Shown here piece by piece: positions 4,650 through 52,207 of a stretch of DNA of 64,000 nucleotides. Made by a program: the position numbers and the translations under genes. The stretch comes from Polymyxa betae (lineage: Eukaryota > Endomyxa > Phytomyxea > Plasmodiophorida > Plasmodiophoridae). Each line of letters opens with the position of its first letter. Position 1 is the first letter of the stretch. The notes beneath the pieces were generated by a model. That model made no database searches. It had not been told where the DNA came from and saw nothing but the letters and a program-made list of their open reading frames with translations. The DNA lies in contig RBZT01000127.1 in the NCBI GenBank assembly GCA_003693705.1, positions 8,910 to 72,909 on the forward strand, given 5' to 3'.

Positions 4650-7600
4650 TTAATGAAACTGAACTCTCGGTAAGGATTTTGTGAAGATATCTGCCACGTT
4701 TTCATGTGACTCTACATATTGGGGTTTAACGTCTCCGAGAATAGTGCGCTCTTGGACATAGCGATTGTGGAGATCGATATGTTTCATTCGACTGTGCTTT
4801 ACTTGTCCATTAGCGAACGCAATAGCCCCTTGGTTATCCTGATGGAGGGTGGTAGGATTATTTTGCGGGAACCCAAGCTCGGAGAAAATATTCCGTAGCC
4901 ATACAATTTCAGATGTCGCTTCTGATGCTGCCATTGTTTCTGCCTCGCAGGCGGATTTGGCGATGGACCTCTGGCGGCGGGATCGGAATGATATTGGGCC
5001 ACTATTCAACATCGTTACGTAGCCTGTGGTTGATCGACGGGAGTTAGGGTCACCAGCCCAGTCGGAGTCCGACTAGGCGAACAACTGTAGAGGTTGGTCA
5101 TTCCTGGCTTGCTTGAACCTTATCCCGTAATTCATGGTGCCCTTCAGGTATCGAAAGATACGTTTTACAGCCTGAACATGGTGCCCAGAGGGCTTGTCTA
5201 CGAAACGAGATACTTCACCAACGGCGTAGGCGATGTCTGGACTTGTACTTAGCAGATGCAGTAGTTGGCCGACGACTTTCCGGTAGTCAAACTCTGATGA
5301 TTTTGGGTCTTTGCTTTCTGATGAATCCAATTTTGCTCCTGATGCCAAAGGAGTAGGTTCCGTTCCACAATTGTCCATACCGTTTATCCTCAATATCGAT
5401 TCTATGTACTTCTTTTGGCACAGGATTACCTTTTTTTCGAGTTACGGTGAACTTCGATTCCAAGGACTTGAGTTATTGGTCCAAGGTCTTTCATTTGAAA
5501 TCGTTGTTTTAAGGCTTCTTTTGTTTCTTTGATCAGCTCCGGGTGTCCTGCCAGGCTGATATCATCCACATATAGCGCCATTATCACGAACCGGGCTCCA
5601 TTGTTTTCTTTTAATGTATAGACAGCTTGTTGACAGAACTTTGTTAAATTTTACATCATTCACAAGAAATGAATCTATTTTTTGGTGCCAGACTAATGGA
5701 GCCTGTTTAGGCCGTATAACGAGCCCAAGAGCCGAACGCATTTTGCATTGGATTTCGGTTTGTAACCTTCCGGTATTTCCATGTATATCTTCTCTTTGAT
5801 GTGTCCGTTCAGGAAAGCCGTTACTACGTCCATTACATGAATGTCAATGGTTTCGTCCAGCATACTGAGTCCAAGGAGAAGTCGGATGATGTCAGCCCTG
5901 ACCACGGGAGCGTAAGTTTCCTCATAATCAATCCCTTTCTTTTGCGTGTAGCCCTTCACGACAAGACGGGCTTTATGTCGGATTCCTCCGTCATGTTCGT
6001 TTTTAATTTTGAAGAGCCATCTGCCCTGGATTGGTTTGACACCTTTCGGTATCTGATCGCAATCTTGCCACGTTTCATGAAGGAGTAATTGTCGCACCTC
6101 CTCATCAATGGCCTTTGCCCAGTTCTTGGAGTCAGTGCCAGTAACTGCTTCGTCAAACGTTGCAGGTTCTGAACGCGTAGCGATTTTCACCCATTCACTA
6201 GTTACCATATTACCGTAAAAGTCTCGTTGCCTTCTTGCTCTTTGGGGTCTTTTTCCAATGTCAGTGCCATCTATTGAATGCCCATCGTTATTATTTTCAT
6301 TATCACTTTCCATTCCTTGACTGATAGTTTCTTCATCGTCTCTGCTGTTGTCACAATCGTCGACGTTATCATTATCTTCATTTTCTTCGTCGCGGTCAAA
6401 TTCATCATCATCATCATCGTTATTGTCACAATCACCCAGATTCCAATCTCGTTCTCCTTCATTTGCATCTTCGTCATCTTCGAGCGCACCCAGCTCGGTC
6501 CTGTCCCCATAACTTCCCTCACGAAAGAAAACGTCACGATGAATTGTAACTTGGTGGGTTTCTGGATCAAAGAGCCTGTATCCCTTCTGATGGTCAGAAT
6601 ACCCGATCAGTATGTACCTTTTCGCTCGAGGGCAAAGTTTAGATCTCTTGTTTTCAGGAACTCGAGCATATGCATCACACCCAAATTCGCGAAGATAGCT
6701 GATATCTGGTGTTGTCCGGTAGAACAATCCGTATGGAGTTGCTGGTCGATCTGGATGAGAGCAGAGGTTTAACAAGTGTGTGGCTGTCAGAATTGCAGCG
6801 CCCAAGAAACGCTTTGATAGTTTGGCTTGGATAAGCATGGCTCTAGCCATGTCCATGAGCGTCAGATGACCTCTTTCCGATACACCATTCTGCTCGGAAC
6901 AACCCGGTACTGTCGACTCCCACTTAATTCCATTTTCCTGTAGATAGTGCTGGAATTCGGCACTTAGGAATTCCTTGGCGTTGTCACCTCTTATTACTTT
7001 GATTTTGCTCTCGACCCATTTTTCAGCACATGTATGTAATGTCTTGAACTTTATGAATGCTTCGTTCTTGTGTTTTAAGAGATACGTGACTTTGAGCCTA
7101 GAATAATCCTCAGTGAACTTTATGAAGTATTTTGCTCCACCAAAGGATTCGACAGGTAATGGACCGCATTCGTCAAAATGCCACAGTTCATTCAGTGGTC
7201 TAGTTCTTGATTTCCTCTTCGGGCGATAAGGTGTCTTTTTCATTTTTCCTTTGACACAGGATGCGCAGAAGGGATTTTCATCCTTAAAGGGACAGTTGCC
7301 TGTCCCTTGAACAGCTTTAGTATTCACAAGCTTTTTGATGTCGCTAAAATTTCTATGACCAAGTCGTCGATGAAGTGCTTCGAGATCGCTGACTGTGGAA
7401 TTCGACTTGAACGAATTCTCTTTCTTTAGACTTTGTTCACCATCGATAAGGTACATTTTTCCTTCGACGTATCCTTGAATCAGGGTTTTTCCATTCTTAT
7501 CCTTTAGTTTGCACTCCGTTTCTGTGAAGATCATGGATTTCCCACCATTCACAGCTGCAATCGTTGATAGCAGATTTGTTTTTCCTAACGCAGGTAGGTA

Positions 7601-8550
7601 TAAGGTTTCCAAACTTGTCCTGCTAGTTCGATTTTTCCTTTTGCTTCAGAGAACATATTATTATTATCGGCAATCTCGATCACGGTTGTGTCTGGCTGGA
7701 TATCAAATAATTTTGGATTTTGTTCCAGTCATGGTTTTGCTGCATCCTGAATCAGCTATCCACACATCCGAGTTACACAAGGTAATATAAGCAGAAATTG
7801 TTTCTTTATCAGTGTCTTTAGCATCATTGGCGAGTTTCGCGTTCTCCTTTTCTTTCTCTTTCAGCCATTTTGGTTTTTTGTTAGGGAATTTTTTCCAACA
7901 ATTCGCCTCGCCTCCTGCATGACTTTTATTGCAGTAGCCGCAAGCTGTTGAAACTCTCAGAGCGAATGATTCCGTGTTTGAGTTATTTGATTCCCTCTTT
8001 TGGACTCTCGCTTTTTCAGCTTCTAGGATTCGATTGGTCAGGTCGTCAATAGTGATGTGGGCTGACTTGCTGTAGGCTTCGACCAGACTTTCGAACCGCT
8101 GTCGTATGCATACTAATATTGCATGTGGTAAAGCAGTATCTTTCATTGTTTGGAGCGAGCTTTCTTCAACGTTTAAATACAGTTCCTTTTTCCGGTTGAT
8201 GAATTTGATGATATCCTCGGTTGGTCCTATTTTCTTGCCATAGAATTCAGACAGCATTTCAGCTGCTGTGTAGTCTGAAAGCTGACCGGCAACGATGGCC
8301 ATGTAATCCCAGACTTCCTTAGCGCTTTTCCTTTCATGGCTTCGTCTTTATAAACGACGCTGAGGCTATTTAGGAGATAACCTCTTGCAACCTTATCCTG
8401 TTTCTTCGATTCTGCAGTTGGCGTCTCTGTAAGATATTCCTCGAGATCGTTTGCCTCGAAGGCCAACTGGACTTGTCGTTTCCAATTGACGTATTCATTG
8501 CTATTACTGAGCTGGGGAATCTTGCTCAGAAGTTTTTCAGCTCCAACCAT
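4650..8550 (-). pseudogene. Copia gag-pol polyprotein, interrupted
   Basis: Domains in order on the minus strand: a gag start (8550, MVGAEKLLSKIPQLSNSNEY); a zinc knuckle CGYCNKSH...C with unusual spacing near 7940-7910; the protease motif IADSGCSKTMTG (about 7760-7725); the integrase zinc finger LHRRLGHRN ... CASC and catalytic D, D, E (DECGPLP, RGDNAKEF, SEQNGVSE); an acidic D/E-rich linker (about 6480-6290); reverse transcriptase with ARLVVKGYTQ; an intact YVDD box at 5561-5572; and RNase H with KHIDLHNRYVQERT. Frame changes occur near 8300-8230, 7720-7610 and 5690-5400. A TAG at about 5074 replaces the codon before SDSDWAGD in RNase H, where a Tyr is usual. The lesions mean an intact polyprotein is not expected. 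The family is unmistakable and close in style to Drosophila copia. Confidence 0.9.
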
Positions 8551-10019: not shown

Positions 10020-13000
10020 TTAAGTGGTCGTTGCAGCCTGGCTTGCAGTTGCTGCTTTCCTTTTGTGTGCCTCCTGCATCTCTTGCATCAACGACTTCTG
10101 GATTCCAGCCGCGACAAAATATCCAGATCCGGGTTTCGTTGGATTGCTGGCTTCTTCAGCATCTTGTGGCTCGGCAGACTTGAATTTGGTTAAAGTCGAT
10201 TCTTTTCTTCTGCTGGTCTCTGGCTTCTTCAAATGACCTCCAGTCTGTTTCGACTTAAGGAAATTGACTTACAATGCAATACCAAAAATCTCACCATGAC
10301 CATGGCAAGTGCATTTGCATTCATATCCGAGCTAGAAGGTTTGATAGTACTGGGCCCAATTTCCTGAAACAATCTCGTCGTTATCTCGGTTCCAAACCAC
10401 AACAATCTTTACCCTTGAAAAAGTGGCATTTGCTTCGGAAACTGTCGGCTTTAATGAGGCTGGAGATGATCCCGACGTTGTACCTTGTCTTATGCTTGAG
10501 AGAGATTCTGATGATGTTGCTTCATCGTCGTCTATCTGTGATTTGAGTTCGGCTGGAGAGAACCTGTTGATAATCGAGTTAGCAAAAAATAAATATCAAA
10601 TCCAACAGATCACCTCAGCTGCCATTCCTTTTGCACCGATTTTAGCGATTTCGAATCAAAGACTTGAGACCTATACACAATGGCGTTCTCGATAATCTTA
10701 CAGACTAACTGGAACGCCCTCATATCAGCCATTGGATCGGTGGAATTAGTATCAGTTGCAATAAAGTTAGGTGAGAAGACGATAGCAAGATTGTGTGGTG
10801 TCATCTTGGATTCTTCACTATGTGATGCATATTTGGCAAATAAATCCAGAGTCCATAAGAAGAGTGAACGATAGGGCTCCGTTATTCTAGCAATTAGCGC
10901 ATCTGTGTGTTCAACAGACACAAACTGATTCAAATCACTAACAGGTATGCCGTGTAACAATTTTACAGGCATATCTCGAAACCAGACCTATATTTCAAAT
11001 TACATTGACAATCATTAGCGAGAATGCACCCTGACCTTCATATTATTAGCAACTGAATTGATATCCTGACATTCACGGAACGTGCCATCATTGAGCTGTT
11101 TCTTGACAGCTTTGGAGTCGGCCTCATCCGGTGCTAGACGAAATATGCCAATTGAGCTGGTCGCATTACGAGAGTCCAGATAAATATCCATTTGAACCAG
11201 AACAGATGGAATTCCGGCTGGATACCATCGAGCTATAAACAGGCTGAATGTCAAGGCACAACCATAAATGAACACATACCGATATCTTCAGATAAAATTA
11301 GATCCATAGAAGTCAGGGGAACGCCAAATTGTGGCACTGCAGAATCAAATGCTGAATCCCTTTCTGTAATATCAGCCATACTATCATGAGCAATACTGAT
11401 TGATTTCTGGAGAAGCAGATTATAGAAGATCTATAGTACAATACAATACATTTGCCTACATTCATCCGTCTAGAGACACTACTAGATGGAATAGCAGCCA
11501 TTGATTCAGCAGGGTATGTTTGAGCAATGTGTGTCAGCTGATCGATAAGATCGAAACTCTCAGAAGCATCGCCGAAAAGAGATTCAAGTCTGCGAATAAT
11601 TGCAAACCTATCCTGAGATGACGGAGGTATAGGCCGATTGGATTGGTTTGCTTCCAATCGGTCAAGTAGAGCTTGTGCAAGAGCTGCCTGAAAGATAGTT
11701 TAGTGATCAATGCATTGACAGAGTTGTAAGATTACGATAGACGATAGTCTGCGAGTAGAACGTCTTTCAACCATAAGTTCACGTAATGTTCTGTCTACAT
11801 TCAAATATCGTAATGCTGATTCATTATTAGATCTGATAGCTGCTGCTAACTCAAGAAGGCTAACAGAAACTGATTAGACCTTATGATAGATTGAAGTAGA
11901 CGATAAACGCGGATACCATGAGGAAGGAATGGGATTTCCATCCATATCAATTCGGACTAAGGTCTTTGATTGTGAAATCAACTCTATAATGGCTGTAAAT
12001 CCTTTTTCTGATAATCTGTTAGACGAGATGTCGATCTGTTTCAGTGATGGATGCACAATAGCAGCTTCCAGAATGCTGATTACTCCATCCCCCTGCATAG
12101 AAAAGTAACTAAATTTGAACAAGAAAACATACATCATGATATCATACCATGGCGTGCTTGTCATCAGCAGCTAAAGAAATACATTCCAATCTTGTCAGAG
12201 ATTGTATTAACTTTGCAAGAGCATCCCCAATCTGTTTGCTCTTCTTGCTATGGTTCAACAGTTTTGGTACTTCAATATTACCATCCAGCGCCAAATGCTT
12301 CAAATTGGAAAACTGCAAAGAGAATACGATTTTAGAGCTGGCATCAAATAACCAGCATTACCTTCTCCAAAGCTTGACATAACTCCTGAAATCCATCTCC
12401 AAGATTATTATATTGGATGCCCATTGCCACAACATTATCAATAGAACCATGTCTCTTAACGCTGTCAACAACAATCTGACGAGTATCAGCAAGCATCCTT
12501 AATTGGAAAAATAAACCCTCACCTTTGTGAAACTAGCCCCAATATTACAATACGATAAGCTTAAAACAAACTGAAGAGGATTGGAATTATTCGAGATTCC
12601 GTCCAGGATGCCTGCAAGCAAAAAATCGCTTATCTTCGTCCGTTCAATAATGAGATGAGAAAGGGATCTGGTTTGACCGATAATCGATCTGAGAACTAAT
12701 GTACATTCTTTGTTAATTTTTAGACCTGAGATAATCAATAATAAGGTGCTATGAACAGAAACACCAAAATTACCAGAAAGATTGAGCATTTCCATTGTAT
12801 CCATTGATATGGCTTTATTTTCAGCCAAGGATGTCATAATGTCGTCGACAATAACATCTTAGAAAAGGTTTAGGGTAGTTATAATTAAATCAAAATACAT
12901 ACTGGTCATGGATAAAGACAGACGTCTTAAGGCTTTACATCTCTTGATAAAGTCGGATAAAGAGCCAGTAAACGATTTACTGAGCTCATTTCTTGACAGA

Positions 13001-15240: not shown

Positions 15241-17720
15241 TTAGTCGCCGGCAGAACCTCTACTTGAGCTAGAGCTTTTCTCTGGCTCTTCGTCTTCAGA
15301 TTGTTCCTCAAATTCATTATTGGCGAACATATCTGTAACAAACGGATGTGACATGAGGTCATTGGCGTCCGGACGATCATCCGGAGACCTACCAACATCA
15401 ATGATCCTACAGAAGACATGTGTTTCATAATACAGACCTTGTTAAACATTTCCGAATAAAATCTTTAGCGACATCCGATAACCAGTCAGGAATTTTGGGT
15501 ACTGCATTAGAGTTGCCAATGTGATACAACGCCCTGAATGGATTATCGAAGTTGCATTCTGCCCAAGGTGACGTAGCAGTTGCCATTTCTATTAAGACGC
15601 AACCAAGGCTCCATATATCGACCTGAGTCCTCAGTTAATAACGTCATGGTACAGTCATTTCGAATAATTATACCTTGCGACCGTAATTGCCCAGGAGTAC
15701 TTCAGGAGCAGTCCAAAGCGGAGTGTAATTATAACCTATCGATGGCGCCTCTTTGGCAAGAATATTCTCAAACTGCTTAGCTGATCCGAAGTCTGCTAGT
15801 TTCAAGTTTCCAAAAGTATCTACAAGCACGTTTTTTCCCTAATGTTCATTTAGAGATCACAATCGTGATGAGACCTAATGAACCTTGATATCACGATGTA
15901 TAACATCCTGACGATGCATGTATTCCAGTGCTGATAACAGTTGAGCAGTATACATTTTTATAGTCGGCTCCTTAAAATGGCCGAAACTTTTAGCATGTTA
16001 GACATTGTTTTAAGCCAAATGAGTTATTCAGTTCACCTTTCAAGTAAAAAATCAATTGATTTTCCAGGAACGTATTCCATTAGGATGTTGAGCTTGGTTG
16101 TATCTTGCTCAGTTCCCAACAAAGCAACAATATTAGGATGCTTGAGCTTCTTCATCAAATTAATTTCCGTTTGAAGTTGCGCGGCGCGAGCTTTGTCTTC
16201 CATCGTGGTCAGCTCAATCTGAACAGGAAAGTGAGTTTGAAACATTTAAGATTTGATTTGAGCACACCTGTTTGACAGCTATTAATTCGCCAGTAACAAG
16301 CATCCCCATATAGACTTTCCCAAACGATCCCTTTCCTATCATATCGCCTTTCTTCCATTCTAGCTTGATTTCAGTGTTAGATTCAGGGGCACCTTGAGTG
16401 ATCGACATTGTATGCCCCTTGGGAAGTCTTCTTGGCGAAGATCGGCGTTTTTCTTTTGAGCTTGGAGACACTGGTGGCGATACCGTTAAAGCAGGTGCAG
16501 AAGTCGAAAGTGTCGGTTTAGGAGCAGCAGCTACTTCTGTTGATGAAGTAGGACTGATAGATTCTGGATCAGATGATCTTGCACGATGTCGATCTGATGA
16601 GTTTGATAACAGCGAAGGCGAAGCAATGGGATCATTTGGAAGCGGCTGTAAAATACTTCTTATCCGGGCATCTACCTGTATAAATATTTAAACAAACAAT
16701 GCAAGAGTTAATATTAACACATACTTGTCTGTTGAACCCATCCTCTTTGATAGGCAACGATGGAGATACTGATGAGGTTATCAAGCAGTCTTGACAACAA
16801 ATTAGCTTATCTCGCACCTTTGCCGATATTTTATCTAATTGCTTTTGACAGAATGAACAGCGAAAGCAGTCAGGATGGAATTTAGCTCCAACAGCAGCCA
16901 CAACCGTATGAACAGGAACGGGCTCTCTACAAACATTACAGACGACACGCATTGATGATGCTGAAATATGATTGGAGCAACGTAATTCGCCACCAATCGA
17001 CAGATATTTGTCAAGATGTACAGCACATTGAACGCAGCGAAAACATTTTCCATGATAGAACTCGGCATTGACGGCCATACAGTCATTAAGTATAGGCTCA
17101 CCACAAGATGTACATCTGTGAGCGAATAGCTCTTGATAATCTTGCTGGCAATATAAATGATCATCTTTTCGAAATATGGTAGAGCCAGATTTAGCCAATG
17201 GTCTCAAACAATGATGACAGGCAAGGCAGTGCTCATGATAGGGCTTTCCACTAGCCTTTATAATCTCATCAGCCTTCGCCTCTTGGCCACAGTGTGCACA
17301 TCGTTCTAATGGGCCACCACATTTTTGACAGTATGGTTGACCATCTCGATTGAAGAACGTTGTGCCAAGTACACTCTGGCATTTAGTGCAAGTGAAATGT
17401 TCAGGATGATAATGAGCACCCATTGCTCCGATCATTTTTCCATTACTTATCCGCTCATTGCATTTCTTACAAACAGGTAGCAGCTTCTCGTAATCAGCTT
17501 GGCAATAGAACTTTTCTTTTTTGTGCCAAAACTTTTTCCCATGAAGAGTTATTCCGCATTGACAACATGTAAAGCATTCTGTGTGGAACTTCACCGTTCC
17601 AACCTTTATATAGGATGAAGTCCCCGAGATGGATTTTCTACATGCATAGCACGTGATGGCATCTGTGCCAGATGTTGACGAGGGCGGCAACGCGGTTCCA
17701 TTGGCGGCCGCCATCGCCAT
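15241..17720 (-). CDS. Five-LIM-domain protein fused to a MAP3K (STE11-type) kinase domain
   Basis: The first large exon (17720-16725) encodes five LIM zinc-binding domains in series, beginning CYACRKSI, CKKCNERI, CAHCGQEA, CTSCGEPI and CNVCREPV. A 49-nt intron (16724-16676, GTATGTG...TACAG, phase 0) joins it to a Ser/Pro-rich linker (VDARIRSILQPLPNDP ... SPPVSPSSKEKRRSS). The linker leads into a kinase domain with Gly loop GKGSFGKVYMG, lysine in IAVKQ, HRDIKGKNV, DFGSAKQFE and VDIWSLGCVLIEMAT, all intact, in the MEKK/ANP style. The next kinase intron, 47-49 nt, falls after IAVKQ and others follow HRDIK, NYGRK and CLTR. An acidic/Ser-rich tail ends at 15241. About 720 residues in total. LIM domains bind protein partners, so the kinase is probably targeted to adhesion or cytoskeletal sites to start a MAP-kinase cascade. 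The fusion rests on the frame across the 49-nt intron. An internal ATG before the kinase (about 16409) could in principle start a separate gene, but the linker upstream looks coding. Confidence 0.85.
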
Positions 17721-18122
17721 CTGGCTGGTTCCTGGAATAAGGACCGAACGAGACAAATCGTTTTTCCAAAACCCAGCCAGAGACTCGAATCCAAAGGACC
17801 AGTACCAAAAAATGTATAGGCTGTGTGATGAGAGCTATTGGCACTGTGCTGTTCGGCCATAAAAATCTTTGGTCGGAGCCGTACTTGGTTGAATGGGATG
17901 AAACATTCGCCTCACCAGCCTCATTAAAGTCAAATTCAGTATCAATATGAGAATGTTTATATAAACAATGACTACTGTAGAGAGACTTGGTTTTGTTTCG
18001 TTAAGCGTCTTTCATACAAAAATGTATCGTAAAATGTTAGACAGACGCCTGAGATTGTGAATTAGATAGACGGACAATTTGTTGTGTATTTTTTCAGATT
18101 GAGCTAATCACTTGCTCGGAAT
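17721..18122. promoter_or_regulatory. Divergent region between the LIM-kinase gene and UPF3
   Basis: About 400 bp separating two gene starts on opposite strands. The LIM reading frame stays open upstream of the chosen ATG as far as about 17840 without another ATG, so a short upstream exon is possible. No recognised motif. Confidence 0.4.
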
Positions 18123-21831: not shown

Positions 21832-23191
21832 ATTTGCCTAAGGTTAAAGGCAGTAAATATAGTTTCGAATGATGAAGAAGCGACGATGTAACCTGAATTG
21901 CACTGCTGTGCCGATAACCCTCACCCGCAACCAAAAGATATCAGCCAAGCACCCAACACCAAACACAAATGGTGAAATTTAGAGATTTCGCTAGAACTAA
22001 CCATACCACAATTTTCGAGCCTTGTCAAGAGATTTAACAAACATCTAGGCACGTGCCTCGGAGAAAGAGTTCAGAACATATTTTTGGCTAAAAGAGTGTT
22101 TATGATGTACGAACGTCAACTGCAAACGTGAAACTGACTGATAAGTTGGACTATAATGATAACCTGATACTATAGCGATATAAATGTATATATATCACTA
22201 TAGATATTGTGATTAATACGGAGATGTTTATGGTGTGTCTTGTACTATAGAGTATAGACTATAGAGTATAGACTATATTCTACATCTCTCCTATTATAAT
22301 ACTTGTATATCAACCATCATCAAGATCCAAGTACTAATAGCCACTCCCTGCTCTCTCATATTCATTATAATACTTGTATATCAATCATCATCAAGATCCA
22401 ACTACTAATAGCCACTCTTTGCTCTCTCATATAATCTACAATCTATCTTCGCTTCTAGACAACCGATATTCGCTCTTTTCATTGCCAATATGGTCGTCAG
22501 TTTCTGCTGTTCAGATTATGTCTGCCTAATGCCATATTTATAGGCCGCTTTCTTTAACTTTCAAAGTCTTTTATGCGTCATATTGCTAACGATTTGCACA
22601 TGCGCGTATATTCATGCAAGATGGCCCTCAATATTGGATTCGCATAAGACAGGGTATTTGGGACTCTCTTCATGCCTGCTTGTGTGTTAACTTGGAACAG
22701 GTTTCGTGGACTGTTTTGGAAGTTTGCACGAGTTGGTATGGGCAAATGCTAATAATACTGTGCTCAATAAGTGTTGACTATCTATTGTAATAGGAGAACG
22801 TCTAAGTCCAATTATTAGTTTTTGTTGCTTAGCAATGGGATTCAGTACCATTTTCCTGGAGTCTTAATGAATCCTCTAAACTTAAAACTTACATAAAAGT
22901 AAATTAACATTTATACTTTTTTTAACTTGTTGGAGGCAACTCACTATCTTATATGCCTGAAATTGTTTTAGTGAAAATGAATTTAATCAAGAGTGTATGG
23001 CATGAGAAGATTCTAATAGAAACTGGAAATGGGTCTTGGACGAATCAGCAAGTTTATAAAAGGTTGTTGAGGCTGGAGAAGTTGATAAATAGGAGATTTG
23101 CGCTAATATTCAGAATTGTCGGACTTGATTCAAGTCCGAAAAATTAGGATCGGGTTCCTCATCGGACTTCACTCGTTGTCATCTTGCCGTT
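21832..23191. other. Intergenic region with tandem duplications, upstream of the uL2 gene
   Basis: Contains AT-rich sequence, short repeated ATAGAGTATAGACT units near 22245-22275 and the 71-bp tandem duplication listed separately. A 64-codon ORF at 22953-23147 has no recognised domain. The last 60 bases before 23192 are pyrimidine-rich, as is common before ribosomal protein gene starts. Confidence 0.4.
22293..22434. repeat. Direct tandem duplication with a 71-bp period
   Basis: The unit starting ATTATAATACTTGTATATCA at 22293 recurs at 22364 with only a few substitutions over about 70 bp. No coding potential. Confidence 0.75.
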
Positions 23192-23962
23192 ATGGGTCGC
23201 GTTATTCGTGGGCAGCGAAAGGGCGCTGGTAGCGTCTTCAAGGCCCATGTGAAGCACCGCAAAGGCGCCGCCAAGCTGCGCTCTGTTGACTACAGCGAGC
23301 GCCATGGCTATACTAAGGGTGTCGTTCGTGAAATCATCCACGACCCTGGACGTGGTGCTCCCCTGGCTCGTGTCGAATTCCGTCACGCTTACAAGTACAA
23401 GAAGGCCAAGGAGCTCTTCATCGCTGCTGAAGGCCTTTACACCGGTATGTTCGTCTACTGTGGTAAAACTGCCCAGCTGACGATCGGTAACGTCCTGCCT
23501 CTGTCGTCCATGCCTGAAGGTACCTTGATCTTCAACGTTGAAGCTAAACCTGGTGACCGTGGTACTCTGGCTCGTACCAGCGGTAACTATGCTACTGTTA
23601 TCTCTCACAACTCCGATGAGAACAAGACCCGTCTTCGTCTGCCTTCCGGCGCGAAGAAGATCGTCAACTCGGACTGCCGTGCTACTATTGGTGTTGTTGC
23701 CGGTGGTGGTCGCTGTGATAAGCCAATGTTGAAGGCTGGCCGTGCTTACCATAAGTACAAGGCTAAACGTAACTGCTGGCCTAAGGTTCGTGGTGTTGCT
23801 ATGAACCCTGTCGAGCACCCGCACGGTGGTGGTAACCATCAGCATATTGGTCATCCATCAACTGTCAAGAGGGATGCCCCAGCTGGTCAGAAAGTCGGTC
23901 TTATTGCTGCCCGTCGTACTGGTCGTCTGCGCGGAAAGAAGAAAATCTCCAAAGAGATGTAA
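23192..23962 (+). CDS. RPL8: 60S ribosomal protein uL2 (RPL8/RPL2)
   Basis: Single intronless exon, 256 codons, the normal length. Signature stretches include [20 protein letters not shown] at the start and [17 protein letters not shown] near the C-terminus, which holds the conserved histidine near the peptidyl transferase centre. It binds 28S rRNA and supports subunit joining. Codon use is much more GC-ending and restricted than in neighbouring genes, as expected of a highly expressed gene; this also produces a long antisense ORF that is not real. The start is set by the conserved N-terminus. Confidence 0.98.
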
Positions 23963-28522: not shown

Positions 28523-31500
28523 TCACTGGTTATATAGCTGATTAGATATAATATTCCTGGCCTGATTAACAGCTACACGAACACGTTCATTACCATCAGC
28601 TGTATATTCCGATATTAGAGATTGCATAGCATTGATTAGTTGCAGATTATCACTTCGTACTAGATCAAGTTCACGTTGTAATTGTTTCATTTCAGATAGA
28701 TGAACCTGATTAGTATCATCATCATCAACGGATTCGGCAATCATCATTCGGAACTGCAACTGAGCATATCTAAGATCTTTCTCCAATTGTTCGATATGTT
28801 GTCGTGATGTCTGAATCACAGAATCTCTATCGGATAATATGGAATACATCTTTGACAATTCTGAATTCAATCGATCTCTAGTATTCTCAGCATCCTGTAA
28901 TTGAACCTGCAACGTTTGCATCTGGTTCATTTCAGTGTGCGCCAATCGTCTCGATCTATAAGTTTTTAATGGAATAATATCATCTTGGTCATTATCATGT
29001 TGTGAATCTGCTAATGTCTGCTCTAAATGTCGGATACGTTGCTGTGCAGATATAGTTTGTGTACGTATGCGATGAAACTGTTTGCAGTTGTATAGAGCAG
29101 TAGAGATGCGACTAGAGAGAATTTCCAGTCTGTTGATATGATCGGGAGTCCATCTTCTTCCATCAATATTATTATACTGACAGATCTATAATATACCCAA
29201 CTTCAATGACATGTAATATATTGAGACAATGTGATTCTGACCTCAACTACCCCAATAATACGCTGTTGATGGTCATAGACCGGTACAGCCATAATTGACA
29301 TTATATTGCATGATGTATACCAGGACAGATTACTGAGACCCAGATTCAGATTCTGTAACTCCACATTCGATAATATTGTATCATTCCAAGGATTAAACAG
29401 AAGCAATGATCGACCAAGACGTTGCACTATTCCTACGACACTATTTTGTGATGGTAGACGAATACTTCCAGGTACGACTTCGAATATGCTCAATACTACC
29501 ATTAGAGAGCATATGATGTTCTTTACCTGATATTGCATCAGCCATATTACTGAATAGATCATTATGTTCACTATCATAGAGAAATAAATGTGCACGATCA
29601 GCTACAAAGGCTTTGGCTATGAACATGTGCACAGCTTGGAACCTACACAGATGTTAGGTGTAATAACGAATATATATAGATATGGTTAATACAATTGTGA
29701 TAGCTGTACAATACCAATTATGGCACTACAGAACTGCACAATCTCATTCAACGAATGAATAGAGTCTTGATGCATTCGTATCTGATCATTGCTCAATGAC
29801 AGCGCATCCCGAACTCCTCCTAATTGTTCAGCAGATTTAACTGCTTCCTGCTCCCATTTACTGCACAGCCGATTGCTCTGTATGAATAAATGAACATAGA
29901 ATCTAATTTCAAACGGCTTTGCTGTGAATACCTGCATAATTAAAGACAGGAAGGCAGCAATGGATGTGAGATAATCAGCTTCAGTAATATATGGCTGATT
30001 CTGATCACATGGTTTAATATTAACTAATTGTAATAGACCAGATACACATGCTGATGATAGATCAATAATAGGTATAATTATGGTAGATTGTAATGTCTCT
30101 AACATCCATTGATCTGGAAATTCCGAATATCTCTCATCAACACTAACACATGGTATAATCTGTAATGAAGCTGATGATACAGCAGTACCCAGGAGACCTT
30201 GACGAGCACCAAAATGAACATCGTCATTTTGCCTGCCAGTTGCCAAGGACATGTCTGTGTAAATGAGATGGAATCTCAGATCATCAGAAAGCAGAAATAA
30301 TGCAGCACCACGAAATTCGAACCGTCGATGTAGCAATGAGATGAGATCCCGGCCGATCTGAAGACAACGATCGGGTCTATCCAGACGCCATGTACCAGCT
30401 CGTCCTAATAGCTGTAACTCCAACGATCTACATGATTCTATGCATACTGTTAAATTCACCAACATCTGTAAAAATCAATAGCTGACCTGATCTATCATCG
30501 ATATGAGCTTCACGATAATCTTCAGGAAGTTGGTGTTGTATAGAAAGGGTCATGATTACATCAGCAATAAGTTCAGCAAACTGCGATTGTTTGGGTGAGA
30601 AAGGCGATCCAGATTCATATCGAACACATCGAAGAAGACCCAGAGCAAGATCCTGATTAGGATCTTTGAGCGGTATATATAGTATAGAGGACAGATTCTC
30701 TGTCGAATACTGGCCCATTGCATCAGAATCGGGATTGTATCGTGGATCAGTGCTGATATCCACAACCATATATGACGATTTAGTAGATAGAACCCAGGAC
30801 ATAATACTACCAGCACCCACGATAGTCTTCTCAGTGAACGATTTCTCATCAACTGACCACATTATTAGATAAAAGATTGGAGACGTGTGACATTATTATG
30901 AACCTGGATATTGAAGTGAATTAGGTTGATGATGCTTAAATATAGTAACTGAATCAGCCTGCATTAATCTGCACCATGATGATTGTAACATACACATCTG
31001 TTCAGCAGTAATATTAAAACAAGATCCATTCAGCTTCAACACGAATGTCAATAGATCTCGCAATGCCTGCTGTCGACCTTTAAACTCATCTATCTCGTTA
31101 CTTAACTAGATTATAGAAATTAGAAGATTACCAATGTCTCATGGCCACAATCTTTACCTGATCTATTTTAGCATTGGCATTATTCAATTGATCAGTCAGA
31201 TAACGAATATTAAATAGATGATTGACCAGATTGCCATAGATGCTGCCGCATAACAGCTCCAGATCATCAAATCTGGGGCTGCGACGTATGATCTGAACCA
31301 ATAGATGACCGTACTGGCTCGGAATCCACATGGCCGCCATCCCCTGATGGGATCGCGATACAGCCGACATGACCATACCGCTCTGCATTGCTTGATGGGC
31401 AGATTGTGTGAGGTCATGATCAAGACCAGATGTTAGCTCATCTATAGATGTAATACGAGCCCAATCAGCCAAGATATTGAAACCATCATAGCTAATGGCC

Positions 31501-34500
31501 ATGGAGGCGAATATATCACGTAGAGTAACCTCAAGCCGGGTTGTAGCTGTACTCGATATTGAGCCGCGCCAATCGTTCTGAATGGCTTTGAGAACTTTCT
31601 GGGCATGATCTAGTTCTGTTCGAGCTCTTTTACCATTCTCTACAGCCTCATTATATTGCGATCTCAGCTGAGATTCAGATTCTTTCCATCGGTCTGCGAC
31701 ATGACCAGATTCCACAATTATGGTGGCAATCTGGGCCAGTATTTCCAGGCATCGTACGTGGCACTTGTTAGGAGATTGCAAGCCTGTCTTGGTTACAATT
31801 AAGATACCTGATCCCAGTGTTACTGCCGTGGAGATAAATGTTTGTGATAGAAGTGGGTATTGGCAAAGAGTTGAGTCGTTATGATGGCAATGATCATTGG
31901 TAACTGTTGACGACACTAACAATTGTGCTAGATCATGATCCAGAATTTGAACGCCTTCCAATAATAAGGTATTGTCAGTAATAATCGGAATGTATCGGCC
32001 TTGATTGTACTGGATCAGATTTGCAAATTTATCCATTATTGAATGGAGAGCTGTATGACCACCAGATCTCAGCTGCTGAATGGCTTCATTATGAATCCAG
32101 TTCATCACTGAGAAAAAGTCTGATAGAAATGTGTTCTCGTGACGGCATTGTTGTAATGCTTGTGTAGAGATGTTCATGGATTGTGACATTTGATCCATAT
32201 TATGACGTAGAAGTAGAGCAGATGCTGCTGATCTGGACACATAATCGCAGAACTCAATCTGTGATATATTCCATGCATTACTGCTAAATATCAACAGCAA
32301 ATAATCACTGAAAAGTCCTGAACGCAATACAAAATTTGATTGCAACTGATGGTCAACATCTTGAGCACAAATTCGAAGTAGGTCAATAGCAACATCAGTG
32401 GGTACAGAGACTGTTCGATTAGTTGGTGTCAGGTTCAGGATTCGCTCATCAACGTCGTTCTTTGACATCAAACGAACTTGACATGGTATGAGAAGCTCCT
32501 GGACGGTACCAAGGAATCTCTCGAATGACATAGCATTGTCAAATACATCCATAGTTAAATGAAGTAATCGCTGAAAGGAGCAGGACTTAGAATTAGCCTG
32601 GGCCAGTGTTTCATTGGCTTCAGAAAGCTCAGCTTGTTGTGTATCAAGTTGAACTAATAATGAGGACACTTGGATCAGATACTGTATCCATAATCCTAAT
32701 ATTGAACAAAATAATCGCGCTTGATCGTTATTCACAGATTGATCGGTCTCTGGTCCTACAGCAAGACATACGCCCAAAACATTATGTTCACTATCTAGTA
32801 TTGGTAAACCAATCACTGATTTCTTATCCCTAATTAATCACATCTCACACACAATCAGACACATAATATCCAATATTTCAATTACCCATCGGCAATGGTC
32901 GAGCTGGGCCAGATTGATCGCAGATCTTTGAATTGGACCCGACTTTCGGTAATGTCCTTAGACGAGCAGGTCTGCTCCAGGACTTCTGATAGATCTGTGC
33001 AGCATGTATTACGAAATTGGTTACTTTGAGTCATATCCCGGTTACCTGAATTCAGTTCTATCATTGATGTTAAGGTTCTTAAATCAGTATATTTCAGTAA
33101 TTTTTCTGTGCCAAAAACGAAGAACTGTTCCAATCCACTAAGGGATTTCCAAAATATCAGGCCGCTTTCCTCCAACATCTCACGAATATTCATAGATAGG
33201 CCTGGGGATATCTTCCAAATCGTCTCCACAAACCTGGAAGCTAACGATGCTGCTTCACCCAATTGTAACGCTCTTTTACTGATTTTTGTCAAACGTGACA
33301 CCTGGGCTGATAACAAAACCTGCATTCGTTGACGGCTCTGACGTTCAGTCTGAGCCAGCTTAATAGCGGGTTCCAATCTATATGGATTGGGTGAGTATTG
33401 CCAAGGTTCGGTGAAATGAGTTGGTCCTCTACCGATCCTGGAGTTTCAGTGAGCTTCGATAAGATCGAACCATATCGAGTAGAATATTAGAGACACTCTC
33501 GAGGAACTTTTGGTCGCTGCTTGAGAATCGAGATCGATTCCCTGTCTCCAGATCACATTTATTGCACACACGAATAACGCCCAATACTCCCTGGTTGATA
33601 ACAGTTCAAACCTGAAATATTGTTGTGCTAATCACCATGAGCTGACCTCTTTATCGGTACCAATTGCCGACATCAGCAATGATCGTGGTTTGGGAGATGA
33701 TTTCAACCCGTATGGAATTCCATCATATTCCTCATTGTATGCATCGGGTACGTCATCTTCATGATAGAAAGCCGACATCCTGTTTATACTGCCCTCAAAA
33801 AATCATCATGGTTTAGAGTTTGTCATACCTGGAAACTGCCACCTGCGTCAACAAACACACCTCATCGATTGGACATCGCACTGTCTTCAAACTTCCGGTC
33901 GTACTGGACTCCGGCCCCGATGTCCACAGGTATGTGCATGTTTGATCGAACAGCCAGAGTTGGGCACATTCCGCACCCAGAAATTTGGCCTAACCATGTT
34001 TCGAATTAGGTTTGCAATTTCGTCAAAAGAGCGCTATTACCAAAGGACACGTATCAGGCCCGAAAACGTTATGCAATCCTTTAGACAAGGTAACAGTTCG
34101 TGCACATTCAATTAATGAATTTGCCATCTGTAGCTGGGTCTGTAATCGTCCCAGCTCTTTACATTCATGTGTACTCTTCTGAGTTAATTCTATTAATTTC
34201 CATTGATAAGCCATCAGCATATTGAGACGTGCAGAGACTGCTTTCATGCCCCAGAGCTCCACTCGACTAAATTCCTTCCCCTTTCCAATATAAGCGCATA
34301 ACTGTCCCCTCCATCCAGCATTTTCAGCTGAATCCAGATCCTCATTTAAGGCCGGAGACATTGAGAAATCTGCACGAGAATAAGTAAGCGAACCGGGCTA
34401 TCCAACATTGTTCTGACGTGATATTGGTGAGGAATTGCTGATTGTTTCGGAATCAGGAAGCCAGCGATACCACATTTTCCCAATGCGAATCTGTTGATAT

Positions 34501-37500
34501 ATTTTAGTAAAATCCTGCACATCATAATGATCTGACCTGAAACATATCAGTCTGCGTAATAATAACAGACAGGGCAATGAGGGCGCCTTCCGCCACAGCT
34601 CGAACAGCGGTAGGTTCATCAACAGGGTTAATCAGATCAGTTTTAACAGCCAATGCATTCATAATGCGAATCATCTCTTCATTCTCTGCTTCAAGCTGTG
34701 CTAATTGTTCAGATGGTCCACTGGTTGACGATATATTCAGATCTTCAGAATGTTTCAGGGACGGTCTAGATCTTGGTGTAACAGGTTCACTGTTAACAAC
34801 AATCTCAGACTCCATTGAAAAGATTTTCTTTCGGGTAGGTCGACGAGAACCGGCGCGACTGGACCTATGTGAAGATATTGTCGATGTGACCGATGGCGAT
34901 CGCGATGGTGATCTCATAACGGCTGCGACCGTGACCGGCTCGGTTGCAGTGGCATTCAAAGATCGTCCGGAATCCCCAGAGCCGTACGATTGCGATTCTT
35001 CAGCGATATCAGAAATGCTATCGCTGGGACCGAATATGCTCTGCAGGTTGAGATTCTTCATATCTAACGATGAGATAACACGTTCATGAAGACGTCGGGG
35101 TCGGGGAGGTGATAGAGGCAGTTCATCTTGCACGTCAGGCACTATCTTGGGTAGAACATATTCAATCTCACCGCCCATGAACTCGATCGTATCAGCGCTA
35201 TCATCGGTTTCGATAATCAATGCTGCCATCACTTCGTTCACTTCTTCGATATCGCGACCTTCACCTGAACGTGATAATCGTCGAAATGACGACCTTTTCA
35301 GTAGCGGTGAATTGATCTCTGACTTGGCCAATGGTAACGAGACTGGTTTTGTATCCAGATTGTTGATTAAAACATGTCGAGTTGTTCGCTTATTGTCAGC
35401 GCTCTCCGAATCGGAATTACCAGTGGCTGTTGCTTCCAATAAATTCGAGACCGATCCGGCATGAAGCAGAGCAAAGCTTTTGATTCGTGCTTCAGCCGAA
35501 GTTGAACGGGTAATGCTGGGTCCGGCATCATCTTGTTCAGTATCGCTATTAAATTCTGTCGACATCCAATCCCTCCATGCTGAGACCGGCTCTGACGATG
35601 ATCCTGTTAGATCCACGTTCATACGTCCGGCGAATGATTCGATCATATTGGCATCAATCTGGTCACCGTTTGTCAACGATGACGATCGGGATAAACGAAC
35701 ATCGTCATCAGATAGCATAATAGTGGAATTAACCCGAACCGCAGAAGGTGGTTTATGGACTTCTTCCATGGGTATCACTGCTGTCTGATTAGATTCAATC
35801 GGTTGCGGTTCGTCGTCAACAGGTCGATGGCGCATTGTCGCTGATGCATTAAACTGGTTGTGTTTTCGATCGAGAAACGACCCGCACATGTTGGCAAATA
35901 TTGATAGAATTACAGAGAAGTGGTTGGCGAATTTTGTGGCTTCTACGCCGGCAAATACAACGGCAATAACTCTGCCCAGATTATCCAACCTAAGGTGACA
36001 CCAACACGTCAATAACGGTACATCCTAACCAAATCATATAACACGATCTTACAATGGAGTGCAGGTGACTAAAAGAGGGTAGGCTACTTTAGCTACATGA
36101 ACGTTATTTCGTATAGTGATACATCGGGAATCAATCGTCTGTTTAGCGAGACGTCTAAATGCAGGCGAATGTGAGATCTTATCAACTCTTTCAAGGCGAT
36201 ATGGTAACAAATGTCGCGGCATGACAGAAGCAATGGCAACCAGCTCAGCATCGAGCGCATCACGTAGCGCTGCTGCCACCTTTGTAGAGAAATTACTTGG
36301 GTAAAGGTCGCCAGACTCACCATCGAACAACTTCGTAATTAGTTCGCAACCATTAACCTGGGCTTTATATCGATCACGGTCAAGAGTGATAGTAGAAAGA
36401 TCCTTTTCAAATCCTTCGAATTGATCTCGTACACGACGTTCACGACGTAATGCGGTACATAGCCTTCTGCAAAATAGCTTTACCATCTCTAGATCTGTGC
36501 TGGTAAATTGTTGTCCATCATTCTTTCCGATCAATTCCACGACTCCATAATCAATAGATTCGCCGTCTGCATTTGTATCAAATGCTGGGACACATAACAG
36601 TGATGAACAACGGCGATAATCGAAATCGGCTGGAACATCGATTTCTGGATCGAATTCGTGATGATTCAGCAGAGCGTCATTAAGCATAGTATGCTGTCTT
36701 CTAATCTGAACAGAGCCAACAATCCCAAATCCCAGCTTCTTTCGGTGTTCACTAGCAGCATTCGCATGGTCCCCGCTAAAACATATCAACTCTTTGCTCT
36801 CCTCAGAGATGAGCCATATTCGACAGACTTGGCATTTGAGTGCAGATTGTAATTGGGTCTGAGCCCAGGATAATACTGAAGAGTTTCGGGCTCTCTCTGA
36901 TTCTATATTGCTGACAATCGTGATCATATTCAAAAGTATTTCGCAGCGTTCAGCACTGGATGCTTCTTTCTCTTTGAGGTTTAAAGAGTTTAAACGGAGT
37001 CGTAAAACATCAGCGGCAAGTTTGGCAGAATCGATTTGAGAGGAAGTGGAAACCCCTTCCAGATAGAGAGCATTTTTTGCAGTATCGCCATTTTCAAGTA
37101 TTGGGTAGCAGGCAAATGAGTCTCTCCTGATGGTTTTCTTGAGATTGGCACTTTCTTGAACAATCTCTGGACAGGTTCGTATCTTCTTTGATGATGTATC
37201 AAGAAGAGTAGCTGCTGTGCATGGAATAGAAGAGGATATAATACTCTCTAATCCTTTTTCTGATACTTTTGGTGACCAATCGCAGAGATATTGTACCATA
37301 TTAGAAAGGGACCCGATTTGCTTCTGATGTTCCTCATTTGATTGTGACATGATTTCATGACGAACGGTCAGTAATCTTTCCTCAAATGCCTTCTGCGATG
37401 AGGCAATCTGCATCTCTAGATCATTAACGCGCTCTTTCAATGTTTGACTTTGCTGGGATTCCACCTTGAGATTCAACAATGCTTCTTGTAAATCTAACTT

Positions 37501-37827
37501 CACAATCTCATTCTCCCTTCTTATCTTAGAATTTTCGGATTTTAAGCTTTCACTTTCGGCTTGTATTTCTTTAATCTCATTGGATTTAGCAACATCTGTG
37601 CGATAAAGAGAGATGTCGGATCTGTTGATATTGGCGAACACAGCTTGATCAGGAATCACCGATGCTACCGACCCATTTGTAGGCGAAATAGAAATCGGGA
37701 CATCATGTAAAATTTGCTTGATATCTGCATCGGTATCTTGAGTGATCTGTTCGGCGAGCCGAGAGAACATTGTCTTCCATTTGAGATCGTCGGCCTGGTC
37801 ATCTGCCGACTCTGAATCGGTCTCCAT
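28523..37827 (-). CDS. Giant multi-GAF, coiled-coil protein
   Basis: On the minus strand a series of long exons separated by short introns runs from an ATG at 37827 (METDSESADD) to 28523 (NIISNQLYNQ), about 2,900 residues. The N-terminal part has a coiled coil (about residues 90-170). A clear GAF domain (36.9-36.4 kb) has SSLLCVPAF and YGVVELIGKNDG. A second GAF-like region is at about 36.3-35.9 kb, then a long Ser-rich disordered region (35.8-34.7 kb). Further GAF units lie at about 33.95-33.5 (GVIRVCNKCD), 33.3-32.6 (VIGLPILDSEHNVLGVC), 32.5-31.2 (divergent, two or three), 30.9-30.45 (SILYIPLKDPNQDLALGLL), 30.4-29.9 (IIIPIIDLSSACVSGLLQLV) and 29.63-29.2 kb (MAVPVYDHQQRIIGVVEV). A coiled coil closes it. 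GAF domains bind cyclic nucleotides or other small ligands, or dimerise. I see no kinase, cyclase or phosphodiesterase domain. Some exon joins are not resolved, so it could be two genes. Confidence 0.7.
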
Positions 37828-38857
37828 TGACACTGTTGCACAGATATATGAAGCTATGAAGTCATGAAGTCATGCTATTATCTGCTGAAGATATAAACAA
37901 GTTATAGTTGTATCTCAGGATTCTAGCCCTATATCAATAGTTAGGTCAACTTCACCTGTTATGTAACATTAAATACATACAAGTGCAATGTAAAGCAGCA
38001 GCCCAATCTCGAATAGGAATACCGGTACGGTCTGTTCAAGTCAGCAACAATTATTGTCAATGTACTGAGCAACCAACTTCATATCTGCTATCCTCTGAAC
38101 ATGTTTTTACATCTGTTATTCTATCCCGGAATTAAATATTTGGTCGGAATCATATACACAGTATCTTGTCTTATCGAATTGTCGCAGTTATGCGGGAGTT
38201 GGCATTTGGGTCAGCCTCAGACAGCATGAACGACCTGAGCTAGATCGTAAAACGATTCCGGACTACAGTTGTTATGATCAAGTAAGCCATACGAATTAAT
38301 GACCAACAGCAATGGTATTTCTGGTAAGAAGATGATATAGACAGACATTACATGGTATTGTTACAAGTGAAAAGTGACAGAGATGAGAGATAAACTGGTG
38401 ACTACTGACTAGGGTTTGTACTGTATTGTTACTGGTTAGATAGTACATGTGTATATAGACTAGCTATGTGTACACAACGAGTGGAACAGTACAGGAATTC
38501 AAGTGGTGAGAAACCCTAATGGCAGTCAATGTGCGTCACTGGACCAGCTCGTGACCAAGTCTAAATCATGGTCACGAGCTGGTCCAGTAGTACAGAGGTA
38601 GACATGCACTAGTTACTATTAGCATGCCATTTCAGATATTATTCATCATCATCTCTGACATATAGACACAGATATTCATATATATTAGGGGTTGGAATCC
38701 TGATCCTCTGGCTAATACCATGTACTAATTAGTTATTGTAGTAGAGTCGGCCCCGATCTATTCATCAATATCATCATCAGATCTCACGGTACCTGATCAA
38801 TATATTCAGAATTCTCATTCTGACACATCATCCATTTACTTACAAAATTAATATCAA
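37828..38857. promoter_or_regulatory. Divergent intergenic region with a strong hairpin
   Basis: About 1 kb between the start of the giant GAF gene (minus) and of the KOW gene (plus). It has no coding potential. It contains AT-rich repeats and the perfect 20-bp inverted repeat at 38538-38588, and should include both promoters. Confidence 0.45.
38538..38588. repeat. Perfect 20-bp inverted repeat with 11-nt loop
   Basis: Arm 38538-38557 is exactly complementary to arm 38569-38588, with loop AGTCTAAATCA between them. The arms contain the palindromic core GAGCTGGTCC/GGACCAGCTC. It lies in the divergent intergenic region, outside any gene I can support. It could form a cruciform or an RNA hairpin, or be a paired binding site. 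Confidence 0.9.
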
Positions 38858-50359: not shown

Positions 50360-50644
50360 AACTCAAGTAGCAATGATTAAAGAAATCTCAGAAATTTCCA
50401 AATTGAAACAGATTCACGAGTTGAAATGACATCGCTGTCATCAAGTCCGCAGTTCCGCACTTTTTCCCAGAAATTTTCCAATATTTGCGCACATATGAAT
50501 GATACTGTCCTACTGTGTGATAAAAGAGAATTGCGCGCCCTTTTATCCCGATATGACCTTTGTATACTAATTTTTACATCTCATCATTAACATATCCTCG
50601 AGGTCTTATTAGGGCACATCGTGTCCATCATAATTCCTTAGTCT
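50360..50644. promoter_or_regulatory. Divergent promoter region between REX4 and Mif2/CENP-C
   Basis: About 285 bp between two start codons on opposite strands. It has no open reading frame of interest; both promoters must lie here. Confidence 0.5.
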
Positions 50645-52207
50645 ATGCCCAGAGCGTCACCACCCGATAATGCTGGGGCATTTGTCAGCCGTCGTGACCG
50701 TCCCGAACACCAACAGCGTCGTGCTGGTACCGGGCGCCAGATTACCAGCCGGGATTTCGGCGTGCTCGGGCGTCACACCGGTGTTCGTTTGCAGCAGACG
50801 ACGAAGGATTTGGAGGGCTTCGACGACTTAGATCAGGCATGGAATTCTGATAACGATGTTGATCAAGAGAATGCTGGCGCCGTCCAGAATCGCTCTTCGT
50901 TATTTCCTGAATCCCCTTTGTCCATGTCTACAGCCCCGAACGAGCCTGAACCCGCAATTGCTGCAAAGAAGCTGGAATTTGATGGTGACCAGAATGAAGA
51001 CCAGACTGCAGATCTTCCTGATTCACAGCCAGCCAGTGAAAGCGAACCTGAATCTGAACCTGAAGCACCAGAACCAGTTAAAACCAAACCTGTAGCTTCT
51101 CGCACCAAGCAGAATGCCAACAAATCGTCTGAGACTGTGAAGAAAGCATCCAAAAAAGGGAAGAGTAAATCTTCGCCATCCGAAGTTGCTAAGAAGCCTT
51201 CGAAAAAGAATTCGGCGAACGAAGGAGCGAAGAAGAGGAAAGAAAGGGCCTCGAATAAATCTCGTAGTAGTCCTTTGGACAAGAGATTGAGTCCTGCTAA
51301 TATCAGTATAGAGAATGATGAAAATGAAGAACCAGTTCAAGACACAGTTGAAGATTCAGGCAGCTTTACTGAAGACGAGACTGTCAAGGATTCTCCTGTT
51401 GCTGAAATTCCAAAACAATCAAAGAAGGTTCAATCTAAACAGCCTAAAACCAAGAAAGCGGCTTCAACTAAAACGAAGCGCCGACAGACGTTGGTTATTA
51501 TTGATGAGGCTCAACAATCTGGCCTTTTGGATGAAGAGACCATGGTTATCGAGAACGATAAACTCGTCAGACGCAGTCAAAGAGCTCGTTGTAAACCTGT
51601 CGCTTTCTTTCAATGCGAACAGCCGAATTATATTCGGGGTCCCGGCGGTCTGTTTACACTTGATCGTGAGAAAGTCGTCATCAAGCACGTTTCGACACCA
51701 CCAGCTCCACCGGCTCGTCGTATTCGTCAGAAGCGGCGTCGACCTAAATCCTGGGATGAGAGCTCTGATGAAGAAGAAGAGCTGTTGCCATTGTTTGGTG
51801 AAACCAAAGTGATTGGTCCGAATGGTAAAGAGCGACGTCAGATTGTTGCTGTTCGTGCTTCGGATCATGCAATGAGTAAAATCACGACCAAACCGCCAGC
51901 TGGAGAAAAGGCGCAGAGTAAGGATTTGATACCGACCGTTTGTAAATTTGAGGGACTTGATCGGGTTTCTACTGGAATTATACGAATTCCTGCATCAGGA
52001 CAGAAATATGCAGAGACGTCATCCAGGACAGAGGTTTTCTTTGTGGCTTCCTGCGAACGAAATTCATTGCTCGTAAAGATTAATAATAACGAATTCAAGC
52101 TGAGCAAAGGTGATACATTTATGGTTCCAGAAAAGAACTCGTACACGATAAAGAATGTGTCTGGACGTAAACAGGCCGACTTATTCTTTTCTGCCAACAG
52201 AGATTAA
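50645..52207 (+). CDS. MIF2: Inner kinetochore protein Mif2/CENP-C
   Basis: Intronless, 520 codons. The N-terminal region has TGRQITSRDFGVLGRHTGVR, similar to the Mif2 N-terminal segment that contacts other kinetochore proteins. A long acidic/Lys-rich middle with several SxxK/R stretches follows. A CENP-C-type motif reads RRSQRARCKPVAFFQCEQ (about residue 310). The C-terminal cupin dimerisation domain reads VEVFFVASCERNSL-like EVFFVASCERNSLLVKINN, then LSKGDTFMVPEKNSYTIKN. It binds CENP-A nucleosomes at centromeres. The CENP-C motif normally has Tyr-Trp after the Pro; here it is Phe-Phe. The rest of the motif, with its Arg residues, is kept. Confidence 0.88.
   Translation: MPRASPPDNAGAFVSRRDRPEHQQRRAGTGRQITSRDFGVLGRHTGVRLQQTTKDLEGFDDLDQAWNSDNDVDQENAGAVQNRSSLFPESPLSMSTAPNEPEPAIAAKKLEFDGDQNEDQTADLPDSQPASESEPESEPEAPEPVKTKPVASRTKQNANKSSETVKKASKKGKSKSSPSEVAKKPSKKNSANEGAKKRKERASNKSRSSPLDKRLSPANISIENDENEEPVQDTVEDSGSFTEDETVKDSPVAEIPKQSKKVQSKQPKTKKAASTKTKRRQTLVIIDEAQQSGLLDEETMVIENDKLVRRSQRARCKPVAFFQCEQPNYIRGPGGLFTLDREKVVIKHVSTPPAPPARRIRQKRRRPKSWDESSDEEEELLPLFGETKVIGPNGKERRQIVAVRASDHAMSKITTKPPAGEKAQSKDLIPTVCKFEGLDRVSTGIIRIPASGQKYAETSSRTEVFFVASCERNSLLVKINNNEFKLSKGDTFMVPEKNSYTIKNVSGRKQADLFFSANRD

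Follow-up and report, generated by a model that had tools for sequence, protein, structure and literature searches.

MAP3Ks differ chiefly in the modules that set the place and time of their firing. LIM arrays are docking modules, some of which bind strained F-actin, and LIM domains have nuclear binding partners too, among others. The kinase of LIMK belongs to the TKL group; TESK, which the initial annotation of the locus described here had listed with LIMK as a LIM-bearing kinase, is not known to have LIM domains, and ZAK-beta is not known to have a LIM array. ZAK-beta (MAP3K20) is described in the accessible text of PMC10789240 as a MAP3K switched on when muscle contracts or cells are compressed. 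According to the parts of PMC3305314 available to us, LIMK1 and LIMK2 have two LIM domains and a PDZ domain, the LIM domains preceding a Ser/Thr kinase, and PINCH/LIMS proteins consist of five tandem LIM domains in a build without a kinase. The nearest published note to the architecture reported here is found in the same work (Koch et al. 2012), which in those parts mentions atypical LIM-plus-kinase proteins of Capsaspora (Co_06515T0 and Co_08582T0) with more than two LIM domains, no PDZ domain and no relationship to LIMK, and does not state their kinase type. In the accessible part of the Phytophthora kinome, two LISK-like kinases are reported, both without LIM domains (PMC3019232), and the kinome of Dictyostelium does not mention LIM in its main text (PMC1420674). 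Three Plasmodiophora papers (PMC4471660, PMC4815078, and PMC6282348) contain the word LIM only as an author name, and PMC3942036 mentions both the LIM domain and Rhizaria, with LIM there concerning myosins.

We analyzed a window of 64,000 nucleotides (the whole stretch of DNA under study) from Polymyxa betae and found a gene for five LIM domains followed by a MAP3K-type kinase. This LIM-kinase gene lies on the minus strand at positions 17720-15241 and comprises seven exons encoding 728 amino acids plus a stop codon, with splice sites picked by eye and by their fit to kinase motifs. Exon 1 (17720-16725) opens with the ATG at 17720, stays in open frame for 332 amino acids and holds all five LIM domains, each also matched by Pfam; in this it differs from the initial annotation, which spoke of a last LIM exon. 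Exons 2 to 6 of the spliced model are located at 16675-16268, 16218-16037, 15986-15884, 15838-15674, and 15622-15438, and exon 7 (15388-15241) encodes the end of the kinase, an acidic/Ser-rich tail and the stop codon, all on the minus strand. The six introns measure, in order, 49, 49, 50, 45, 51, and 49 nt and are bounded by GT..AG in every case. Intron 1 (16676-16724, minus strand, 49 nt, phase 0, GTATGT...TACAG) separates the LIM array from the linker, and the in-frame join of the LIM exon to the linker across it is as annotated at the outset. The position of this intron is supported by a relative, P0002, in which the residues after N-K-Q resemble, by eye, an in-frame read-through of this intron. 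An in-frame stop is present at 17837, upstream of the ATG at 17720, which is likely the start codon.

Pfam analysis of the 728-aa product detected five LIM stretches (E 7.1e-53) and a Pkinase domain at residues 440-697 (E 1.4e-65). Delimited by motif, with the Pfam matches in agreement, the LIM domains occupy residues 24-76 (17493..17651), 84-134 (17319..17471), 141-194 (17139..17300), 203-251 (16968..17114), and 261-311 (16788..16940) on the minus strand, and are separated by spacers of 7, 6, 8, and 9 residues. They are followed by a Ser/Pro-rich linker (residues 312-439; 16355..16787, minus strand, a span that takes in intron 1), which has 20 Ser and 14 Pro among the 88 residues with which exon 2 opens and is probably flexible, and by the STE11/MEKK-type kinase domain (residues 440-697; 15337..16354, minus strand, a span that takes in introns 2-6), assigned by Pfam and by a ranking of PDB matches. 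The motifs GKGSFGKVY, HRDIKGKN, and DFG, previously reported as intact, were found together with AVK and APE, and the kinase is thus predicted to be catalytically complete by motif. The domain order of the initial annotation and its contrast with LIMK were borne out: the window protein has five LIM domains instead of two, no PDZ match, and an STE11-like kinase. It shares the five tandem LIM domains with PINCH, against pieces of which in the PDB it was matched, and differs from PINCH in the attached kinase.

In a whole-length protein search, 7994 candidates were scored, 1063 matched, and the best 120 of the 1063 were examined. PF00412 and PF00069 occurred together in 38 of these 120 homologues, every one at rank 46 or better, so the architecture is neither a chance join nor the one-off that it had seemed, and many proteins share the build. 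Exactly five LIM domains were detected by motif in 22 of the first 47 of the best 120 sequences, with spacers mostly of 5-9 residues; this count includes P0033, in which two matches share one residue. Other sequences showed one to four LIM domains by motif, the low counts perhaps being due in some cases to contig ends, gene prediction or the strictness of the motif. All 29 sequences of alignment A2, chosen mainly for having both domains, matched both Pfam models. The five catalytic motifs were retained in 32 of the 38 LIM-bearing sequences among the best 120; P0002 is cut short, and P0028, P0033, P0037, P0038, and P0041 have a glycine loop outside the pattern used. One homologue, P0018, carries both LIM and kinase domains on accession GEZN01003009.1 of the TSA division, and GEZN00000000 is assigned to Paulinella chromatophora in the accessible text of PMC12449267; on that assignment, LIM and kinase share one assembled transcript in P. 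chromatophora. P0021 (82% identical to P0018) has the same build with an incomplete first LIM, and the source of P0034 names it Protein kinase domain/LIM domain. Databases already contain such LIM-kinases, which, as far as we found, have gone unremarked in the literature searched.

The matches listed (the best 120 of 1063, filtered by length) included no sequence named Plasmodiophora, although P. brassicae, in which the gene may be missing or annotated at a length beyond the filter, is represented in the searched database, and the name Capsaspora appeared neither among them nor among the best 120 of 422 matches of a profile search with a 20-member alignment. The 120 matches listed in the profile search contained 11 LIM-plus-kinase proteins, none of them new, and its candidate filter dropped many known members, so that it neither extended nor bounded the family. 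Taken as read from sequence, these comparisons point to a family in which LIM array and kinase are inherited together in at least two rhizarian lineages, the phytomyxean one and Paulinella.

We further compared the two halves of the protein in a set of 21 members, consisting of the window protein and 20 of the 38 LIM-bearing homologues; sequences without exactly five motif-detected LIM domains, as well as P0002 and P0033, were omitted. In 1942 of 2100 comparisons, a LIM domain found its best match in the domain of the same number in another member; five domains all alike would give 420. Identity matrices of the LIM array and of the kinase were correlated in these 21 members (Mantel r 0.84; none of 5000 permutations as high), although the permutations ignore relatedness and shared descent of both parts would itself produce relatedness, and r fell to 0.68 in 18 members once the divergent P0037 group was removed. 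Identity of the window protein to the other members is 32-46% over the array and 49-66% over the kinase.

These data bear on whether the locus might hold two adjacent genes, one for a five-LIM protein and one for a separate kinase starting from near 16409. Such an arrangement would accord with an in-frame ATG near 16409, directly ahead of the kinase (HTM-SITQ), and with the product of an unspliced intron 1, because the reading frame then stops at residue 363 and a LIM-only protein of 362 aa results. We consider it highly improbable and rejected the two-gene model, since the linker is open and continuous in frame, both domains occur together in the 38 homologues and in the transcript-derived P0018, and the LIM register and the array-kinase correlation join the two halves. 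A further transcript, carrying the kinase alone and starting at the ATG near 16409, may exist. Codon usage was not informative for the linker, the true frame scoring 0.018, the highest of the forward frames, with one reverse frame higher at 0.156. The fused product requires splicing because of the stop at residue 363 upon retention of intron 1, and any one intron kept in the mRNA would give a truncated protein. Retention of intron 1 would leave the 362-residue LIM-only protein as a possible competitor isoform.

The closest solved structure to the kinase domain was MEKK2/MAP3K2 of the STE11 group (190 bits), followed by ASK1 (164-168 bits) and the STE20 group (150 bits or less), and a profile of the family ranked the PDB in the same order, MAP3K2, ASK1, and then STE20 kinases. 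All catalytic motifs are shared with MEKK2, and by this ranking the kinase is classified as STE11/MEKK type, whereas its N terminus, a five-LIM array, sets the window protein apart from STE11 MAP3Ks. Its activation segment, YTPLWTAPE, also contrasts with the G[ST]PxWMAPE of plant-type MAP3Ks among the matches listed. Among the best 120 of 1063 matches, YTxxWxAPE was found in 53, G[ST]PxWMAPE in 60, and neither in 7, without overlap; the LIM-bearing sequences among them had the former in 35 of 38 cases and the latter in none. Since the activation segment is distinct, substrate choice may differ from that of other MAP3Ks.

Phylogenetic analysis, which had been suggested as a check on the catalytic domain, placed it near STE11 MAP3Ks, in line with the PDB ranking. 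A quick tree was built from 77 kinase domains and a careful tree from 68, nine long or distant sequences fewer, and both omit the incomplete kinases P0002 and P0027. In the quick tree, whose outgroup did not form one side of a branch, all 37 LIM-bearing sequences used grouped together with 22 LIM-less ones (SH-aLRT 98), to the exclusion of four plant MAP3Ks and of a cluster that includes yeast/chytrid members. The same split received 66/80 in the careful tree, which makes the LIM-kinases and their LIM-less kin a likely subfamily and not a proven clade; both trees place the LIM-kinases beside plant and yeast/chytrid MAP3Ks in a weakly supported branching order. The nearest sequences to the window protein were P0024, P0020, and P0004 (support 95/91 in the careful tree), and P0024, 78% identical in the kinase, comes from a short contig with no LIM on it. 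LIM-less members were interspersed with LIM-bearing ones, which requires no fewer than 11 label changes in the quick tree and 12 in the careful tree, of which 2 and 5, respectively, were forced by starred branches. Some of the LIM-less members may be fragments. Others carry different modules, namely, WW in P0048, a ubiquitin-like domain in P0049, and PH with a weak ubiquitin-like match in P0052, which suggests that modules have been exchanged or lost among the kinase relatives.

What is new, judged from these predictions, is an STE11-type MAP3K with a five-LIM module that is conserved in Rhizaria, each part being of a known kind. The earlier statement that no MAP3K with an attached LIM array had been described holds for the literature searched, consisting mostly of papers outside subscription, in which we found no description of a LIM-array MAP3K or of a LIM-plus-kinase protein of this build; the Capsaspora proteins, however, had already been noted as combining a kinase with more than two LIM domains (PMC3305314, accessible parts). 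Judged from homologous proteins, the LIM-MAP3K seems to be an ancient wiring of a signalling cascade to the cell skeleton that has gone undescribed until now. A conserved five-LIM module so far from animals would show a cytoskeletal input to MAPK without LIMK or the animal focal adhesion.

Our preferred reading, to which we assign a probability of roughly two in three, is that the locus is one gene for a cytoskeleton-tethered MAP3K. Through its LIM array the kinase would dock, at sites of a cortical, adhesion-like or contractile kind, on actin filaments or on partners that bind LIM domains; there it would be concentrated and undergo self-activation or local activation, and the active LIM-kinase would phosphorylate a MAP2K that in turn switches on a TxY MAPK. 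The gene structure, the domains, their conservation and the MAPK- and MAP2K-like genes are read from sequence; from them we infer catalysis, the MAP2K substrate, docking and local activation, and the tie to adhesion or actin sites made in the initial annotation belongs with the latter.

Candidate parts of such a cascade are present in the genome. The pattern TxYVxTRWYR was found at six loci, four of them with TEY, and the reversed pattern at none; one TxY locus had MAPK4 as its best PDB match, with other MAPKs next. The TDY loop sits in frame C78, which presumably resembles MAK/ICK-type kinases, and not all six loci need therefore be classical MAPKs. An open frame, C43, had MEK1 as its best PDB match and is MAP2K-like. 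A strict MAP2K DNA pattern gave no match in the genome, and the loose pattern DFG[IVM][ST] gave 56 matches as against 53 for the reversed control and so did not discriminate. C425, another kinase fragment of STE type, scored about equally against STE20, MAP3K2, and PAK chains in the PDB. Of 123 candidates in the genome, 70 were scored against P0018 and gave 64 matches; among these, only the window locus matched both halves of the LIM-kinase, and no second copy was seen.

The docking proposed in the preferred reading could take a narrower form, with an array that binds strained F-actin only and a protein that is mechanosensor and MAP3K in one, passing filament tension to MAPK signalling; we regard this as rather unlikely. 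Aromatic residues near the position at issue are common in LIM domains generally, and a test on aromatics therefore discriminates little. In the accessible text of PMC12157626 and PMC12863670, the features shared by stress-sensitive LIM regions are domains in tandem, fixed linkers, and an aromatic residue that is conserved, for which F512, F575, and Y646 of LIMD1 are given (PMC12863670). The five tandem LIM domains of the window protein, with the spacers given above, fit the number (three or more) and the short, fixed spacing of such regions. We took the key position to be nine residues after the sixth zinc ligand, a placement inferred from the LIMD1 sequence fitted to the numbering of PMC12863670. 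At this position, 13 of 20 members have an aromatic in LIM1 (Phe) and 18 of 20 in LIM2 (Phe/Tyr), the window protein having both, whereas none of the 20 has one in LIM3, LIM4, or LIM5. A shifted aromatic was seen in LIM3 of 14 of 20 members at +11/+12 and in LIM4 of 19 of 20 at +7, and LIM5 had none that was consistent; the window protein likewise has shifted aromatics in LIM3 and LIM4 and none in LIM5. If force gating were true, a single protein would convert actin tension into MAPK signalling and a separate adhesion receptor would be unneeded. The fuller version, an ancient force-gated rhizarian MAP3K whose five LIM domains sit on strained F-actin and report tension in the amoeboid or plasmodial cell to MAPK, with intron retention providing a LIM-only competitor, is in our view unlikely. 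The LIM-MAP3K would be a compact mechanosignalling candidate in Rhizaria, whose molecular cell biology is little developed.

The deviation of LIM3-LIM5 from the strain-sensing pattern would also suit a scaffold, in which the array binds protein partners in the manner of PINCH or paxillin and thereby places the kinase next to its regulators or substrates, with no actin binding of its own and no force sensing, a reading that we hold to be possible, if doubtful. The top solved matches of the LIM domains were paxillin, LHX/ISL, CRP, LMO, and PINCH chains, and a protein of the same genome with SH3, four LIM domains and a villin headpiece could supply the actin binding. However, the PINCH-named PDB chains all matched LIM2 or LIM3 of the window protein only, and grids against eight LIM-only proteins had no consistent register, so that the matches do not allow a particular partner to be named. 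A paxillin origin of the array was considered and rejected, as mean-score grids of the 21 members against the same eight proteins (P0255, P0256, and P0323, named leupaxin or TGFB1I1, and five unnamed or hypothetical ones) showed no consistent diagonal. The SH3-LIM-villin headpiece protein is encoded in one open frame on genome contig C252 (1180-2589).

Besides the cytoskeleton-tethered MAP3K that we favor, several other genes were seen in the window, which has a G+C content of about 41%; values of 58.5% for P. brassicae and 45.1% for the published Polymyxa betae assembly are given in PMC6328671. A divergent frame with a UPF3-type match starts near 18120, beyond the start side of the LIM-kinase gene, and a convergent gene for an RPB9-type zinc ribbon lies downstream, its end being near 15100 by eye. 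About 4 kb away on the same strand is an exon with a RhoGAP domain (10610-10987, minus strand), a possible cytoskeletal regulator, and a Ty1/copia-like retroelement fragment (5693-7645, minus strand) carries Pfam matches to gag pre-integrase, integrase and the start of reverse transcriptase. A long frame at 36049-37869 (minus strand) has a GAF domain by Pfam, and the frame beside it, at 31128-32837, gave no Pfam match. The frame at 50642-52207 (plus strand) contains a Mif2/CENP-C-type C-terminal domain and is a centromere protein candidate. Finally, the RPL8 frame (23129-23962), a single gene by which the organism probably belongs with the phytomyxean Rhizaria and not with the zoosporic fungi to which the initial annotation had looked, shares 88% identity with Plasmodiophora brassicae, the other 119 matches listed being 81% identical or less.
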